A stretch of DNA of 64,000 bases from [Ruminococcus] torques ATCC 27756 (GTDB lineage: Bacteria; Bacillota; Clostridia; Lachnospirales; Lachnospiraceae): contig NZ_DS264349.1 in NCBI RefSeq assembly GCF_000153925.1, forward strand, positions 3,334-67,333. Direction: 5' to 3'. Made by a program: the position numbers and the translations under genes. The notes below the pieces were generated by a model. That model did no database searches, had not been told where the DNA came from, and saw only the letters and a program-made list of their open reading frames with translations. Below are positions 39,290-45,500 of this stretch, piece after piece; the stretch's first letter is position 1; every line of letters begins with the position of its first letter.

Positions 39290-40585
39290 ATGAAAATTGT
39301 AGGACTTATTACAGAATATAATCCATTTCACAATGGACATCTCTACCATATCCAACAGGCAAAACGTACAACCGGTGCCGACGCTGTCATCGTTGTTATG
39401 AGCGGCGATTATGTCCAAAGAGGTGTTCCGGCTGTCATGCCAAAGCGTTTAAGAGCCGAATCCGCTCTGGAATGCGGTGCTTCCGCTGTATTTGAACTTC
39501 CTGTCTGCTATTCTACCGGAAGCGCAGAATTGTTTGCCGAAAGCGCTGTCGCTTTGTTGGACCAGCTTCAAATTGTAGACTCGCTTTGTTTCGGGAGTGA
39601 ATGCGGAGATTTAGATGCTTTATCCGAAATTGCAGACCTTCTCTGTCAAGAGCCAAAAGATTACCGTTCTCTTTTAAAAAAACATTTAAGAAACGGACTT
39701 TCCTTTCCGTGTGCACGCAGAAAAGCTTTGAAAGAATATCTTCCGGAAAAAAACTTTGCGGCTCTTTTAGATGAACCTAATAATATTCTCGGAATCGAAT
39801 ACCTAAAAGCGATCAGAAAATTAAAAAGCACGATCAAACCATATACGATCCTCAGAAAAGGCGCCCGGTATCACGACCAAGAACTCAGTACAGAGAATTT
39901 AAGTTCTGCATCGGCGATCCGTTCTCTTCTTTCGTATTCAGGATCTTCTTTAAGAAAATATGACGATCTGCCAAAGGGAGCTTTTGACGACACCGCCCCT
40001 TTTAACATTTTCGGAGAATTGGAATCACAAGTGCCGCAGTGCTGCCTGAAACTTTTAAAAGATTGCCACAAAGTTTCTTACCCGATTTATCAAAACGACT
40101 TTTCTCTTATCCTGAAATACAAATTATTAAACAAATATCCCGAAAACCTGCTTCGATACATGGATGTCTCTGAAGAACTGGCAAACAGAATCTGTTCCCG
40201 GCTTAATTACTTTTTCAACTACAAACAGTTCTGTGACCTTCTAAAAACAAGAGAACTTACGCAGACACGGATCAACCGGGCACTCCTTCATATAATGCTC
40301 GGAATAAAGAAAACAGACGTAGAGGAATATATTGATGGCGGATATCATTTTTACGCCCGCCTTTTAGGCTTTCGGAAAGACCGGGAAAAACTGCTCACAC
40401 GCATTTCAAAAGAAAGTTCACTGCCGCTTCTTATCCGGTTGTCTGAAACCGAAACCATCCCTCCTCTAGGCCGCAAAATGCTTCGCAATGACATGCTTGC
40501 ATCTAATTTATACACTTCCGTCGTCACCGATAAGTTTAAAACAGCCTTCCAAAATGAATACAAGCAGAAGGTGATCAAAATTTAA
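39290..40585 (+). CDS. tmcAL: tRNA(Met) cytidine acetate ligase
   Basis: A 431-residue enzyme (former YlbM) that acetylates the wobble cytidine of elongator tRNA-Met using acetate and ATP. The HIGH-type nucleotidyl-transferase motif is in EYNPFHNGHLYHIQ (residues 9-22); VMSGDYVQRG and YSTGSAELFAESAV follow. It is next to acetate genes pta-ackA by one locus, which may be chance. The start is set by AAGGAG 6 nt before MKIVGLI. Divergent to mgtE. Confidence 0.93.
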   Translation: MKIVGLITEYNPFHNGHLYHIQQAKRTTGADAVIVVMSGDYVQRGVPAVMPKRLRAESALECGASAVFELPVCYSTGSAELFAESAVALLDQLQIVDSLCFGSECGDLDALSEIADLLCQEPKDYRSLLKKHLRNGLSFPCARRKALKEYLPEKNFAALLDEPNNILGIEYLKAIRKLKSTIKPYTILRKGARYHDQELSTENLSSASAIRSLLSYSGSSLRKYDDLPKGAFDDTAPFNIFGELESQVPQCCLKLLKDCHKVSYPIYQNDFSLILKYKLLNKYPENLLRYMDVSEELANRICSRLNYFFNYKQFCDLLKTRELTQTRINRALLHIMLGIKKTDVEEYIDGGYHFYARLLGFRKDREKLLTRISKESSLPLLIRLSETETIPPLGRKMLRNDMLASNLYTSVVTDKFKTAFQNEYKQKVIKI

Positions 40586-40596
40586 TTTCCGCCAGA

Positions 40597-40648
40597 CAAA
40601 AACATGCCCGCAGCGGTCTTTTTCCACCACTGCGGACATGTTTTTATT
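40597..40648. terminator. Bidirectional terminator between tmcAL and icd
   Basis: AAAAACATG-C-CCGCAG-C-GG pairs with CC-A-CTGCGG-A-CATGTTTTT around TCTTTTTCCA. A T-run follows on both strands. Confidence 0.85.
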
Positions 40649-40666
40649 TTTCTGTTATTTCAATCA

Positions 40667-41863
40667 TTACAGTCTCTTTGCGATTGCTTTAATAAACTGC
40701 TCGCTGTTGAGTACCGTCGGATTTTCAAGCGTTGTGATCAATGCGAGATCTTTTGTCATCTCTCCCGCCTCGATCGTATCTATCGTTGCTTTTTCCAACT
40801 TATCCGCAAACTCCATCAATTCGGTATTGCCGTCAAGTTCTCCTCTTTTTCTAAGCGCACCTGTCCATGCAAAAATCGTTGCCACTGAGTTTGTCGATGT
40901 CTCTTCCCCTTTTAAATGCTTATAGTAGTGGCGCTGAACAGTTCCGTGAGCCGCTTCATATTCATAGTATCCTTCCGGTGAAACGAGAACAGATGTCATC
41001 ATCGCCAACGAACCAAAGGCAGAAGACACCATATCACTCATCACATCTCCGTCGTAGTTTTTGCATGCCCAAATATATCCGCCTTCTGATTTCATTACAC
41101 GGGCAACCGCATCATCGATAAGCGTGTAAAAATACTCAATGCCTGCTTCTTTGAACTTCTCATCAAACTCAGCGTCATAAATCTCTTGAAAAATATCTTT
41201 AAATGTATGATCATACTTTTTGGAAATCGTATCTTTTGTGGCAAACCAAAGATCCTGCTTTGTATCAAGAGCATAAGAAAAACAGCTTCTTGCAAAACTT
41301 TCGATCGAACGGTTGATATTATGCATTCCCTGCACAATACCCGGTCCGTCAAAATTATGTACAAGCTCTTTCGTCTCGCTTCCGTCCTCTGCTGTATATA
41401 CAAGTTCAACTTTGCCGGCTCCCGGAATTTTCATCTCAGAACCTTTGTATACATCACCATATGCATGTCTTGCAATCGTAATCGGTTTCTTCCAATTCTT
41501 CACACACGGCTCGATTCCTTTCACCACGATCGGAGCACGAAATACCGTTCCGTCAAGAATCGCACGAATCGTACCGTTTGGACTTTTCCACATCTCTTTC
41601 AAATCATACTCATCCATGCGCGCTGCATTTGGAGTAATTGTAGCACATTTTACCGCAACCTTATATTTCTTGGTCGCCATTGCAGAATCAACCGTGACCT
41701 GATCGTCTGTCTCGTTTCTATGCTCTAATCCAAGATCATAATATTCTGTTTTTAGATCAATATACGGAATAAGAAGCTCGTCTTTGATCATTTTCCAAAG
41801 AATTCTTGTCATCTCATCTCCGTCCATCTCCACAAGCGGTGTCGTCATTTTGATTTTTCCCAT
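40667..41863 (-). CDS. icd: NADP-dependent isocitrate dehydrogenase
   Basis: A 398-residue enzyme of the dimeric, eukaryotic-like IDH subfamily that makes 2-oxoglutarate, CO2 and NADPH. Substrate binding is seen in [18 protein letters not shown] (about residues 90-107) and the metal/NADP site in [17 protein letters not shown] and [10 protein letters not shown]. The start is at MGKIKMTTP with GGAG upstream. It is the last gene of a unit with the candidate citrate synthase and a GntR regulator, so it likely feeds glutamate synthesis. Confidence 0.94.
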
Positions 41864-41961
41864 TGTTATTTTCTCCTTTTTAATATATGAACTTTTTGCC
41901 CCCATCTATTCAACACATCTTCCGCTTATACAGCTTCCGATGTAGCTGTACTTTTTGCAAT

Positions 41962-42618
41962 CTAATATCCCTGCTTTTTCAAATTTTGCATTACATGAAT
42001 AATATGCTCATTAGCAAGCTGTTCTGCCATCTCTGCATCTCTGTCTTTGATCGCACGTAAAATCTGTCTGTGTTCACGTATCGACTTTCTGGCTCTTTCT
42101 TCTGATACGATCGATGATTTTCTGGCTCTTTGCACATAATTATGAAAATCCGTCAGAACATGTTTCAGCATTCTGCTTCCCGAAGCTTCATAGAGAACAG
42201 CGTGAAAACGACCATCCAACGCCGCAACCTGCTCCGTGCTGAAGCCGCTTTCCTTTTTCATTTGAAACTCTGAAAGAAGAAGCGATTCTTCCAACTGGTC
42301 AAGCTGCTCTTCTGTAATATGTTCTGCCGCCCAGCGGGCGCACAATCCTTCCAGCATCGAGCGGATCTTATAGATATCCCATATATCTTTATGAGATATA
42401 CCCGATACATAAGCTCCTCTGTTCGGAATAATCGTCACAAGCCCTTCCAACTCAAGCTGACGAAGAGCCTCCCGTACAGGCGTCCGGCTCACTCCTAATT
42501 CTTTCCCTATCGCCGTTTCCCTAAGTTCGTCGTTTTCTTTATATGTTCCATTTAAAATATTATCCCTTATCTTCTGAAACACACGACTTCCAAGGGAATG
42601 ATCCTGATATTCTTCCAT
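41962..42618 (-). CDS. GntR family transcriptional regulator, FCD type
   Basis: A 218-residue regulator. The winged helix (about residues 12-75) shows LGVSRTPVREALRQLELEGL and the wing IIPNRGAYVSG. The FCD ligand domain (about 85-210) has YKIRSMLEGLCARWAAE and HAVLYEASGSRML, and the metal-binding His are plausible. The ligand may be a carboxylate such as citrate. It lies between the citrate synthase-like gene (21 bp) and icd, and probably binds the palindromes upstream of that operon. Confidence 0.9.
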   Translation of the reverse strand: MEEYQDHSLGSRVFQKIRDNILNGTYKENDELRETAIGKELGVSRTPVREALRQLELEGLVTIIPNRGAYVSGISHKDIWDIYKIRSMLEGLCARWAAEHITEEQLDQLEESLLLSEFQMKKESGFSTEQVAALDGRFHAVLYEASGSRMLKHVLTDFHNYVQRARKSSIVSEERARKSIREHRQILRAIKDRDAEMAEQLANEHIIHVMQNLKKQGY

Positions 42619-42639
42619 CTGAAATCCTCCGACTATAAT

Positions 42640-44028
42640 CTACAATACAACATGCAGTTCCCTACATACACTTTCTATTTTGGCAATTAATTCTTCATCT
42701 GTCAAGACCGTAACGCGTCCGTCCTCATACTGTTTATCAACCCATTCTTTCAGACGATGTACCAGTTCCGAATTTTTATCAACTTTCCGTTCTTCCAGAA
42801 GTTTAAAATACGCATTGATCCAATATGCGATCCCCGCTGTTCCGGATGTATTGGAAACCGACACCAGTGCGGGACGGTTTAAAAATTTATCCGTATCAAA
42901 AATATTGTATATTTCCTCATTTTTCAACATGCCGTCCGCGTGAATCCCCGCACGCGTCACATTAAAATTCTTACCTACGAAAGGCGTTCTTGAAGGTACA
43001 GTATATCCGATTTCTTTCTCATAATATTCTGCAAGCTCCGTGATCACAGTTGTATCCATACCATCCAAAGTTCCGCGAAGCTGCGCATACTCAAATACCA
43101 TTGCCTCAAGGGGAGTATTTCCGGTTCTTTCCCCGATACCAAACAATGAACAGTTTACACCGCACGCCCCGTAAAGCCACGCTGTCGTTGAATTATTCAC
43201 CGCTTTATAAAAATCATTATGTCCGTGGAATTCGATCAGTTCACTTGGAACACCGGCATGAGTCATTAAGCCATATATGATTCCCGGAATCGATCTTGGA
43301 ATTACAGCTCCCGGAAAATTCACTCCGTATCCCATCGTATCACAAACACGGATTTTTACCGGTATTTTATATTCATCCATCAATTTCATTAATTCCATAC
43401 AAAACGGAATCACAAATCCGTAAATATCCGATCTCGTAATATCTTCCAGATGACATCGCGGACGAACTCCCGTCTCCATACACTCACGAACTACAGTAAG
43501 ATAATGTTCAAGGGCCTCTTTTCTCGTCATTTTCAACTTATAAAAAATATGATAATCCGAACAGCTTACAAGAATCCCCGTCTCTTTTAATCCGATCTCC
43601 TTCACAAGCTCAAAATCTTTTTTGCTTGCTCTGATCCAACTCGTAATCTCCGGAAATTCATACCCTTTTTCCAGGCAGCGATAGACAGCATCTCTGTCTT
43701 TTTTACTGTATAAAAAGAATTCGCTCTGCCGTACTTTTCCTTTCGGGCCGCCGAGTCTGTGCAAATATTCATAAATCGAAACAATCTGTTCAGTCGTATA
43801 TGGAGCTCTCGACTGCTGACCATCTCTGAATGTTGTGTCTGTGATCCATATTTCATCCGGCATATTATGAGGTACAATCCTGTCATTAAATGCAATCTTC
43901 GGAATCTCATCATAATGAAACAAATTACGAAATACATTCGGTGTATCCACATCAACAAGGGGATACATATGTTCTTCTAATTCAAGCAAGTTCGTATGCT
44001 TATTCAAAAATACTTTTCTGTTTTCCAT
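42640..44028 (-). CDS. Homocitrate/isopropylmalate synthase-family protein, candidate Re-citrate synthase
   Basis: A 462-residue DRE-TIM barrel Claisen condensation enzyme. The metal/catalytic start DTTFRDGQQSRAPYT (about residues 64-78) and the HxH motif FHGHNDFYKAVNN are intact. It is unlike LeuA: no LeuA allosteric C-domain is visible, and its neighbour is isocitrate dehydrogenase rather than leuBCD. Re-citrate synthase of Clostridium kluyveri belongs to this family, so citrate formation from oxaloacetate and acetyl-CoA is the best guess. Homocitrate or methylcitrate-type products are alternatives. ATG at 44028, with AGGAGG 7 nt upstream. Confidence 0.78.
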   Translation of the reverse strand: MENRKVFLNKHTNLLELEEHMYPLVDVDTPNVFRNLFHYDEIPKIAFNDRIVPHNMPDEIWITDTTFRDGQQSRAPYTTEQIVSIYEYLHRLGGPKGKVRQSEFFLYSKKDRDAVYRCLEKGYEFPEITSWIRASKKDFELVKEIGLKETGILVSCSDYHIFYKLKMTRKEALEHYLTVVRECMETGVRPRCHLEDITRSDIYGFVIPFCMELMKLMDEYKIPVKIRVCDTMGYGVNFPGAVIPRSIPGIIYGLMTHAGVPSELIEFHGHNDFYKAVNNSTTAWLYGACGVNCSLFGIGERTGNTPLEAMVFEYAQLRGTLDGMDTTVITELAEYYEKEIGYTVPSRTPFVGKNFNVTRAGIHADGMLKNEEIYNIFDTDKFLNRPALVSVSNTSGTAGIAYWINAYFKLLEERKVDKNSELVHRLKEWVDKQYEDGRVTVLTDEELIAKIESVCRELHVVL

Positions 44029-44074
44029 CAAATTTCCTCCTATGATTGCATCTTTTTATATGTATACACGTATA

Positions 44075-44091
44075 TATGTATGCTATACATA
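44075..44091. promoter_or_regulatory. Second palindrome in the leader of the citrate synthase operon
   Basis: TATGTAT-GCT-ATACATA, a 7+3+7 palindrome about 45 bp before the start codon and inside the predicted leader. It contains GTAT/ATAC, like the operator at the promoter. Another GTATAC lies nearby at 44062-44067. Confidence 0.45.
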
Positions 44092-44123
44092 CTCTTGCAC
44101 CTCGTGCTCAGATATATGTATTC

Positions 44124-44149
44124 TTGTATAATTGTATACAAATATACAA
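44124..44149. promoter_or_regulatory. 26-bp inverted repeat operator candidate over the -10 box
   Basis: An inverted repeat with one mismatched pair: TTGTATA at 44124-44130 mirrored by TATACAA at 44143-44149, with the perfect core TTGTATACAA at 44132-44141. The core fits the TNGTnnACNA pattern of FadR/VanR-type GntR sites. It covers the -10 hexamer, so binding would repress. Confidence 0.65.
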
Positions 44150-44159
44150 AATATGTCAA
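44131..44159 (-). promoter_or_regulatory. Promoter of the citrate synthase-gntR-icd operon
   Basis: A consensus TTGACA (44159-44154) and TACAAT (44136-44131) with a 17-bp spacer on the minus strand. The predicted leader is about 95 nt. The rest of the 305-bp gap 44032-44336 is AT-rich with no ORF seen. Confidence 0.75.
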
Positions 44160-44248
44160 TCCTTCATTAAAGTATTTTATTATACAAAAGTAACAATTCT
44201 GCCTGCGCTATTCACGAACCCTTACTGTATAGCCGGACTGTTACATAC

Positions 44249-44288
44249 AAAAAGAGAGCGCAAACAGTTCTGTCATTCACACTCTCTT
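44249..44288 (-). terminator. Terminator after serA
   Basis: On the minus strand AGAGAG(TG) and (CG)CTCTCT pair across a loop of about 20 nt, followed by TTTTTG. It closes the leuB-ilvD-ilvB-serC-serA run. Confidence 0.65.
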
Positions 44289-44336
44289 TCTCAACGATAT
44301 CTAATTTATTTTACTCTCTTCACAGTAAGAGTTCAC

Positions 44337-45500
44337 TTATCTGATCACTCTTACTTTCAACACGCCTTCTACCGCTGCTAACTGCGCTTCCACATCTTCT
44401 GAAACTGTTCCATCCACATCAAGCATCGTATATGCGTATTCTTTACGGCTTTTATTTGTCATAACTTCAATATTCATATTCTTTTCAGCCAAAAGAGCGG
44501 TGAACTGTCCGATCATATTCGGAATATTTTTATGAAGGATTGTAATTCTCTCTCCTTCTCCTTTCGCTCCCATATCGCAATCCGGGAAGTTTACAGAATG
44601 TGTGATATTTCCATTCTCGAGAAAATCTTTCACCTCTGCCGCAGCCATTTTAGCACAGTTATCTTCCGACTCCTCTGTAGATGCACCAAGATGCGGAATC
44701 ACGATCGCGCCTCTGACACCGACTATCTCTTTTGTCGGGAAGTCCGTTACGTAGCAGCGCACTTTCTCCGATACAAGCGCGTCTACGATGTCTTCCTGAT
44801 TCACAAGAACATCTCTGGCAAAATTCAAAATAACAACGCCTTTTTTCATAAGACTGATAGCGTCTTTGTTGATCATACCTTTTGTATCTTCCAATGCAGG
44901 CACATGAACTGTAATATAATCACACTCTTTATAAATTTCATCTGCTGTTTTCGCGTGATGAATATTGCGCGACAATCTCCATGCCGAATCAACAGAAACA
45001 TATGGATCATATCCATAAACTTCCATTCCAAGATGAACGGCTGCATTTGCCACAAGAACACCTATCGCGCCAAGACCTATAACGCCAAGTTTTTTCCCTT
45101 CAAGTTCTGTTCCTGCGAATACTTTTTTCTTTTTCTCTGTGATCTTTGCAATATCGCCATCCTCTTCGTATTCCTGAACCCAGTTGATTCCTCCGATAAT
45201 ATCTCTTGCTGCCAAAAGCATTCCCGCAATCACAAGTTCTTTTACGCCGTTTGCGTTTGCTCCCGGCGTATTGAATACAACAACCCCTTCTTCGGCACAG
45301 CGTTCAAGCGGTATATTATTCACACCTGCGCCCGCACGGGCGATCACTTTCAAGTTTTTATCAAACTCCATCTCGTGCATCTTTGCGCTTCGCACAAGAA
45401 TAGCGTCTGCTCCTTTTGCAGTCTCCACATTCACATAATTTTCATCCAGCTGATCAAGTCCTACTGCCGAAATTGGATTTAAGCAATGATATTTATACAT
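44337..45500 (-). CDS. serA: D-3-phosphoglycerate dehydrogenase
   Basis: A 387-residue short-form PGDH, the first step of serine synthesis. The Rossmann loop LGVIGLGAIGVLVANAA (about residues 144-160), VHVPALEDTKGMINKDA and the catalytic His in PHLGASTEESE are present. A C-terminal ACT domain (about 315-387, MIGQFTALLAEKNMNIE) gives possible serine feedback. It starts 2 nt after serC, so both are cotranslated. Confidence 0.95.
   Translation of the reverse strand: MYKYHCLNPISAVGLDQLDENYVNVETAKGADAILVRSAKMHEMEFDKNLKVIARAGAGVNNIPLERCAEEGVVVFNTPGANANGVKELVIAGMLLAARDIIGGINWVQEYEEDGDIAKITEKKKKVFAGTELEGKKLGVIGLGAIGVLVANAAVHLGMEVYGYDPYVSVDSAWRLSRNIHHAKTADEIYKECDYITVHVPALEDTKGMINKDAISLMKKGVVILNFARDVLVNQEDIVDALVSEKVRCYVTDFPTKEIVGVRGAIVIPHLGASTEESEDNCAKMAAAEVKDFLENGNITHSVNFPDCDMGAKGEGERITILHKNIPNMIGQFTALLAEKNMNIEVMTNKSRKEYAYTMLDVDGTVSEDVEAQLAAVEGVLKVRVIR

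Follow-up and report, generated by a model that had tools for sequence, protein, structure and literature searches.

A probable Re-citrate synthase operon for 2-oxoglutarate supply in [Ruminococcus] torques, with a predicted FCD-type GntR repressor and operator that recur across the class

Introduction

Labelling experiments in Clostridium thermocellum found both a Re- and a Si-citrate synthase in use, and the same report treats the reason why Clostridia have both as an open question (PMC6115520). Catenibacillus, a member of the Lachnospiraceae, likewise encodes the two kinds (PMC11170127). Clostridium acetobutylicum carries a putative citrate synthase-aconitase-isocitrate dehydrogenase (Icd) operon, CAC0970-0971-0972, and its aconitase mutant is restored by glutamate (PMC4383383). 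In Clostridium propionicum the Re-citrate synthase gene lies upstream of an aconitase gene (PMC4832176). The open-licence literature searched, as far as its available text goes, yielded no dedicated regulator of the citrate branch in Clostridia. A relative of known structure to the regulator considered here is Atu1419 of Agrobacterium fabrum, an FCD-type GntR repressor of the VanR group that binds ATGTATACAT over -10 boxes, where the G at position 3 is required and is read by Arg45, with Glu34, Thr46 and Arg49 also used; Atu1419 has an Asn/His3 zinc site, and citrate occupies the effector pocket in its crystals yet does not release the DNA (PMC7797058).

The locus described here lies within a 64-kb stretch (the window) of the [Ruminococcus] torques ATCC 27756 genome, a 2.74 Mb assembly that is 98.95% complete. 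By sequence its first enzyme appears, like the Re-citrate synthase of Clostridium kluyveri, CLO1313_RS03665 of C. thermocellum and CAC0970, to be a citrate-branch member of the DRE-TIM enzymes (PMC6115520, PMC12016533, PMC4383383). The synthase-aconitase-Icd order of CAC0970-0972 (PMC4383383) also occurs in some loci of the class, whereas the operon in the window has gntR rather than acn between synthase and icd, and is without aconitase. A regulator gene accompanies branch genes in Caproicibacterium lactatifermentans as well, where Rex is encoded in an acn-icd operon, but Rex is not a GntR, and the motif searched for in that study, TTGTTAANNNNTTAACAA, differs from the operator here (PMC9600882). 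The regulator of the window resembles Atu1419 (PDB 6z74, 6za0, 6za3, 6za7) in its domains, contact residues, metal-site positions, TGTATACA core and overlap of the -10 box; it differs in that Atu1419 belongs to hydroxycinnamate catabolism, has methylene-tetrahydrofolate as its proposed effector, and binds 10-bp palindromes instead of the 24-bp one found here (PMC7797058). We think it probable that the locus is a Re-citrate synthase operon for 2-oxoglutarate supply, governed by a dedicated FCD-GntR repressor and operator that recur class-wide.

Results

Layout of the locus

The enzyme, gntR and icd genes share one strand with short gaps, from 44028 to 40667, as the first-pass annotation of this DNA had described (Table 1). 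The enzyme frame as listed begins three bases earlier, at a TTG. Icd scores 686 bits against PRK08299, for which the cut-off is 335. The operon, on the minus strand, is downstream of ilvD, ilvB, serC and serA, the last of which is found no more than 600 bp from the locus in 38 of 80 named relatives. An IlvA scoring above its cut-off is encoded within the window, so that CimA is unneeded for isoleucine, and a role for the enzyme as citramalate synthase in isoleucine formation was set aside. Between 40000 and 45600, Rfam at gathering scores returned zero matches to a riboswitch or other RNA.

Table 1. Features of the locus, in positions of the window.
Feature	Position	Strand	Remarks
DRE-TIM (HMGL-like) enzyme, type I Re-citrate synthase candidate, 462 aa	42640-44028	-	ATG at 44028 behind GGAGG
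FCD-type GntR regulator, 218 aa	41962-42618	-	21 bases past the enzyme gene
NADP-dependent isocitrate dehydrogenase (Icd), 398 aa	40667-41863	-	likely start; open frame to 41905
serA (phosphoglycerate-dehydrogenase-like)	44337-45500	-	upstream, same strand; neighbour, outside the operon
Operator palindrome, 26 bp	44124-44149	-	12/13 pairs; recurs in named relatives and class
Promoter TTGACA-17-TACAAT	44131-44159	-	TTGACA 44159-44154, spacer 17, TACAAT 44136-44131
Possible extra half-site AGAATACA	44117-44124	-	8 bp after the last half-site; weak

Identity of the enzyme

The enzyme has an HMGL-like Pfam match of 118.8 bits (cut-off 29), and residues D64, R68, D69, E195, H268 and H270 are invariant in 50 sequences; we take the D/R/D, E and HxH residues to be those of a DRE-TIM active site. 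Its model superposes on homocitrate synthase 6ktq with Z 34.4 and rmsd 2.9 over 375 aligned residues. Structure search returned homocitrate synthase (HCS), LeuA, CimA and MAM synthases all at Z of about 31-34, with residues 1-48 barely covered, and because these enzymes score so similarly the fold does not determine the substrate. All 18 NCBIfam models matched have cut-offs far above the score of the enzyme, the best being 147.8 of 517 bits, and the equivalog cut-offs missed include those of leuA_bact (116.4/598.7 bits), citramal_synth (59.9/450) and nifV (146.1/462.9).

A sample of 291 genomes, which we take to be Clostridia from the names of the relatives described below, served to represent the class. 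Among the matches listed, identities to the enzyme were either 48-100% or at most 33%, and the upper group, here type I, was present in 66 genomes. In a tree of 57 rows, with type I thinned to 35, a 100/100 branch separates those 35 rows from 21 others; LeuA, NifV and type II (HCS-like) rows stand opposite type I, with type II nearer NifV, and a single long-branched Deinococcus row falls on the type I side. The first-pass annotation had proposed a Re-citrate synthase. At the level of sequence the distinct clade and the scores below cut-off support this identity over LeuA, CimA and NifV; the phylogeny, run as a check on the proposal, set the enzyme apart from LeuA and the NifV/HCS-like enzymes. 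The most fitting reading of the protein is as a Re-citrate synthase of the C. kluyveri type, an already known kind of enzyme, with orthology to the assayed protein drawn from reported identities and gene order. That it is a citrate synthase is very likely, and Re stereochemistry is predicted to go with this activity. Of 60 type I loci in the class sample, 25 have an aconitase-family gene nearby and 17 have Icd, so neither neighbour is universal.

The plasmid-borne relatives of the enzyme are headed by two Deinococcus proteins of 36-39% identity; as anchors for the comparison these relatives were dropped, since none was close. On plasmid pDrdI of Deinococcus wulumuqiensis (L299, 2721-5299) the relative, of 39% identity, is divergent beside a citrate/2-methylcitrate synthase gene.

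Two type II proteins were scanned and exceed the NifV cut-off (498 vs 462.9 bits). An aconitase-family gene adjoins 12 of 13 type II loci, the exception being L191, with none in its 11 kb; PF00285 is absent from 11 of the 13 type II genomes; and the operator described below is present at three of the loci (L191, L272 and L277). The window enzyme and the HCS-like protein of L191 are 29% identical over 344 columns, which resembles the roughly 28% given in published accounts for the two kinds of Re-citrate synthase. Size, identity and gene order suggest that type I is the kind found in C. kluyveri, and type II that of C. difficile/Heliomicrobium.

Operator and promoter

The 26-bp inverted repeat with one mismatched pair, recognised at first pass, was confirmed (12 of 13 pairs), and it is the sole even-length 26-bp site with at least 12/13 pairs in the window; shuffling the 309-bp leader by dinucleotides gave a 26-bp palindrome of at least 12/13 pairs in 4 of 5000 trials. 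Its 24-bp consensus, TGTATAATTGTATACAATTATACA, lies at 44125-44148, where the version in the window, TGTATATTTGTATACAATTATACA, agrees at 23 of 24 positions. That the palindrome covers the promoter -10 also proved correct, with the whole TACAAT inside the operator. The promoter has 11 of 12 consensus bases and ranks top of nine promoter-like sites in 40400-44420, a number that does not exceed the average of 10.4 in shuffled sequence. In 72 non-redundant relatives (111 sites, reduced to 85 with 40 bp on both sides and to 72 by a 75% identity filter) TTGACA keeps its distance from the operator, with 92-97% conservation at every base, and this fixed distance implies a 17-bp spacer to the TACAAT inside the operator. 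At the possible extra half-site, footprint positions 28-31 are only 57-65% conserved. A second GTAT/ATAC palindrome, claimed earlier for the leader, did not hold up: ATGTATAGCATACAT is present from 44090 on the minus strand, yet it occurs in the upstream stretches of none of the 80 relatives, and even-length 24-bp palindromes with 9/12 pairs arose in 1103 of 5000 shuffles, so the candidate was rejected.

The named relatives are the best 80 of 583 from a contig scan, 84-94% identical, mostly from Mediterraneibacter, Faecalicatena, Dorea and other Lachnospiraceae, with a few named only as Eubacteriales, Clostridiales or bacterium; C. kluyveri is not among these 80. An operator of at least 19/24 precedes the enzyme gene in all 79 testable loci (L062, with 29 bp of upstream DNA, was dropped), while none of 1580 shuffles reached 19. 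In all 80, gntR lies within 301 bp downstream on the same strand. Icd is present in 79, or 78 under a strict order rule, since the Icd match of L037 begins 4 bases before the gntR end; the remaining locus, L043, has zero Icd matches within its 7385 bases. Across the class sample, 32 of 60 type I loci have an operator of at least 19/24 (0 of 1200 shuffles) and 28 fall under this score, L170 among them with 18 and an intact core. These 60 were drawn from 67 type I places, omitting the window's own, G073, G098, G125, G163, G244 and the split G285.

The regulator

The GntR protein combines a PF00392 helix-turn-helix (HTH; 68.5 bits) with a PF07729 FCD domain (106.6 bits), and beyond residue 75 its model (pLDDT 93.0) shows seven helices, of which that at 163-169 is short. 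Residues E34, R45, T46 and R49, which are the DNA-contact residues of Atu1419, are invariant in 42 sequences. H139, H183 and H205 are invariant in the same set and D135 is found in at least 90%; together they form a predicted metal site of Asp/Asn plus three His. The nearest structure to the model is Brucella 7u5q (Z 23.0, rmsd 3.3, 210 aligned), tied with PmiR of Pseudomonas aeruginosa (PDB 7xp0, 7xp1; 34% identity, Z 22.4, rmsd 2.9, 198 aligned), which comes from another organism and pathway; Atu1419 follows at Z 21.1, rmsd 3.9 and 212 aligned. Foldseek agrees with the other structure search, and DhdR structures with inducer are among the matches. A paper title has PmiR sensing 2-methylisocitrate, and one DhdR structure title names L2HG; these ligands fit, without showing, a carboxylate effector from the citrate branch.

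The regulator had been proposed to act on its own operon through the palindrome, a proposal that gains support from operator conservation, from co-occurrence and from the likeness to Atu1419. With almost the confidence that we place in a citrate synthase activity, we predict that the operon's GntR reads the operator; that the result is repression we judge quite likely.

Distribution of the operator across the class

Of the 291 class genomes, 59 contain the 16-mer TGTATACAATNATACR and four its backward reading. Merging gave 69 exact places, and 58 of these have gntR or a gene of the branch no more than 450 bp away: Re-citrate synthase at 29, a 640-aa aconitase at 11, GntR at 9, GltA at 3, a 336-aa Icd at 3, and HCS-like enzyme, Icd and the 757-aa hydratase type at one each. 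Eight of the nine GntR-headed places lead into GltA and one into Icd. The 29 Re-citrate synthase places are partly circular, because the 16-mer was taken from Re-citrate synthase upstream stretches; the independent part is that 29 of the other 40 places fit. Under the 450-bp rule only genes of the query set were annotated, which comprised gntR, the branch genes and some controls, and an unannotated gene may therefore stand closer. The one 640-aa aconitase scanned, from L231, matches PRK07229 at 1021 bits (cut-off 612).

Eleven places had no branch gene: L189, L190, L194, L200 (cut by a contig end), L209, L210, L212, L213, L219, L220 and L232. The neighbours in L209, L210 and L212 look to us like an aminotransferase gene and dapF, and these places are either further targets or chance. 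Near the gntR, icd or aconitase genes of L216-L218, L231 and L183 stands a gene that we take, by its look, to be rex-like, an arrangement similar to that published for Caproicibacterium (PMC9600882).

Operator and regulator go together. The 16-mer is found in 48 of 61 genomes with an orthologue of the operon GntR vs 11 of 230 without (Fisher p 4e-32, kinship ignored); the orthologues were delimited after the match list had been viewed, at about E 1e-43 with one truncated copy added. With 18/24 as threshold and L266 left out, 59 type I loci were compared: GntR and operator agree in 53 and disagree in six. Two exceptions, G012 and G019, have the GntR without the operator at the tested gene; both carry it at a different gene for citrate synthase (L206 and L272). 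In G092 (L222) and G186 (L221) a more distant GntR is adjacent; the others are G233 and G278. Among phylogenetically independent pairs, 4 favour the link, 0 oppose it and 4 are undecided; the direction is as expected, but the pairs are too few (p 0.125). The open-licence literature searched, in the text available, gave no account of this regulon, so reports elsewhere would be missed; within that literature the target set appears undescribed, and the regulator appears to be an addition to the FCD-GntR repressors.

Other citrate synthase and regulator genes of the genome

The absence of gltA and aconitase from the window, stated at first pass, is borne out, and matches to PF00285 and PF00330 lie on other contigs. 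The first-pass annotation had also raised the case of a gltA elsewhere doing the job, and the genome search bears this out in part: a PF00285 protein exists, matching PRK14032 at 704.6 bits (cut-off 426), while the operator was not found upstream of its gene. A 757-aa aconitase-family hydratase, on another contig as well, matches PRK11413 at 1348 bits (cut-off 641). LeuC-like, LeuA and OadA/PycB-like proteins are also encoded. The LeuA (L004 1399-3393, contig C40) is an enzyme-regulator fusion of 664 aa, with the usual domains followed by a C-terminal AraC-type HTH (PF12833, 75.9 bits).

The GltA homologue could be the main citrate synthase, leaving the operon enzyme as a minor isozyme or backup. 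A PF00285 protein accompanies the type I enzyme not only here but in 36 of the 66 type I genomes sampled, with none in the other 30; C. thermocellum uses both synthases (PMC6115520); and a correlation study regards Si-citrate synthase as the likely function of the PRK14032-type proteins in Lachnospiraceae (PMC11964587). The same study, however, notes that PRK14032 has zero characterised members and that a 2-methylcitrate synthase cannot be excluded, and in R. torques it is the type I enzyme and icd, not gltA, that share the regulated promoter. We consider a main role for GltA rather unlikely.

It is improbable that the operator is read by another regulator, or that the operon GntR is an activator. 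The obvious candidate for such a reader is a second FCD-GntR (contig C41, L289 1243-1926), 35% identical to that of the operon and with SRTPIREA in the recognition stretch, which might conceivably recognise the same core; it stands behind a gene that we assume to be ispE-like, upstream of which is ATGTATACAA (about 301-340 of L289). Similar paralogues, of about 33-41% identity, occur in many class genomes. Moreover, Atu1419 shares the TGTATACA core, so the core alone cannot separate FCD proteins, and four operator-bearing type I loci are without a close GntR orthologue. Against this reading, the operator tracks the operon-GntR orthologue, albeit with kinship ignored, and in G012 and G019, where the GntR is present and the tested gene has no operator, a different citrate synthase gene carries one; overlap with the -10 suits repression better than activation. 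Within the R. torques genome the exact operator occurs only at this operon, and a scan allowing up to 2 mismatches did not reveal a wider regulon (21 matches vs 18 in the control). The only other exact matches to TTGTATACAAGTATAC, on contig C28 at 19844 (L117, about 1501-1518) and 87471 (L118), have a differing flank and a CTTGTATACAAG-like centre; no citrate-branch gene was seen beside them in the open reading frame lists by eye, and they are possibly sites of another FCD-GntR.

That the enzyme is instead a 2-isopropylmalate, citramalate or homocitrate synthase sharing an operon with icd by chance is very improbable: its best NCBIfam and PDB matches bear those names, the operon of this lineage stands beside ilvD, ilvB, serC and serA, and the fold search is blind to these substrates, but all 18 NCBIfam matches fall far short and the clade is separate, the genome has its own LeuA and IlvA, Icd adjoins in 79 of the 80 named loci and the class loci have the branch neighbours counted above, 30 of the 66 genomes with the enzyme are without PF00285, and GltA stands behind the same operator in other genomes.

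Discussion

In the reading that we prefer, the operon would supply 2-oxoglutarate, and hence glutamate, from acetyl-CoA and oxaloacetate, with the DRE-TIM enzyme forming citrate as its Re-type counterpart in C. kluyveri does, and with Icd catalysing the last step; the aconitase step would presumably be carried out by the PRK11413 hydratase encoded elsewhere in the genome. GntR dimers would bind the TGTATACA core and the flanking TGTA/TACA half-sites of the 24-bp palindrome. With the operator placed between the -35 and the start, over the -10, bound GntR would exclude RNA polymerase. Its occupancy would most likely be set by a metal-bound di- or tricarboxylate, namely isocitrate, citrate or 2-oxoglutarate. 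Many genomes of the class may use this regulator and operator for the branch, irrespective of the type of citrate synthase that they encode.

A broader proposal, whose chances we put at about even, is that one FCD-GntR and its 24-bp operator act throughout the class as a homeostatic switch for supply along the route from citrate through 2-oxoglutarate to glutamate, one that has persisted while the citrate synthase itself was repeatedly replaced (type I Re-citrate synthase, HCS-like type II, Si-type GltA), that marks the branch enzyme where two are kept, and whose effector is a tricarboxylate or 2-oxoglutarate at the FCD metal.

The candidate regulator, its operator and its predicted targets make both the two-synthase question and the regulation of the branch testable. 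The operator, in turn, offers context-based evidence of function for enzymes annotated as homocitrate or 2-isopropylmalate synthase.
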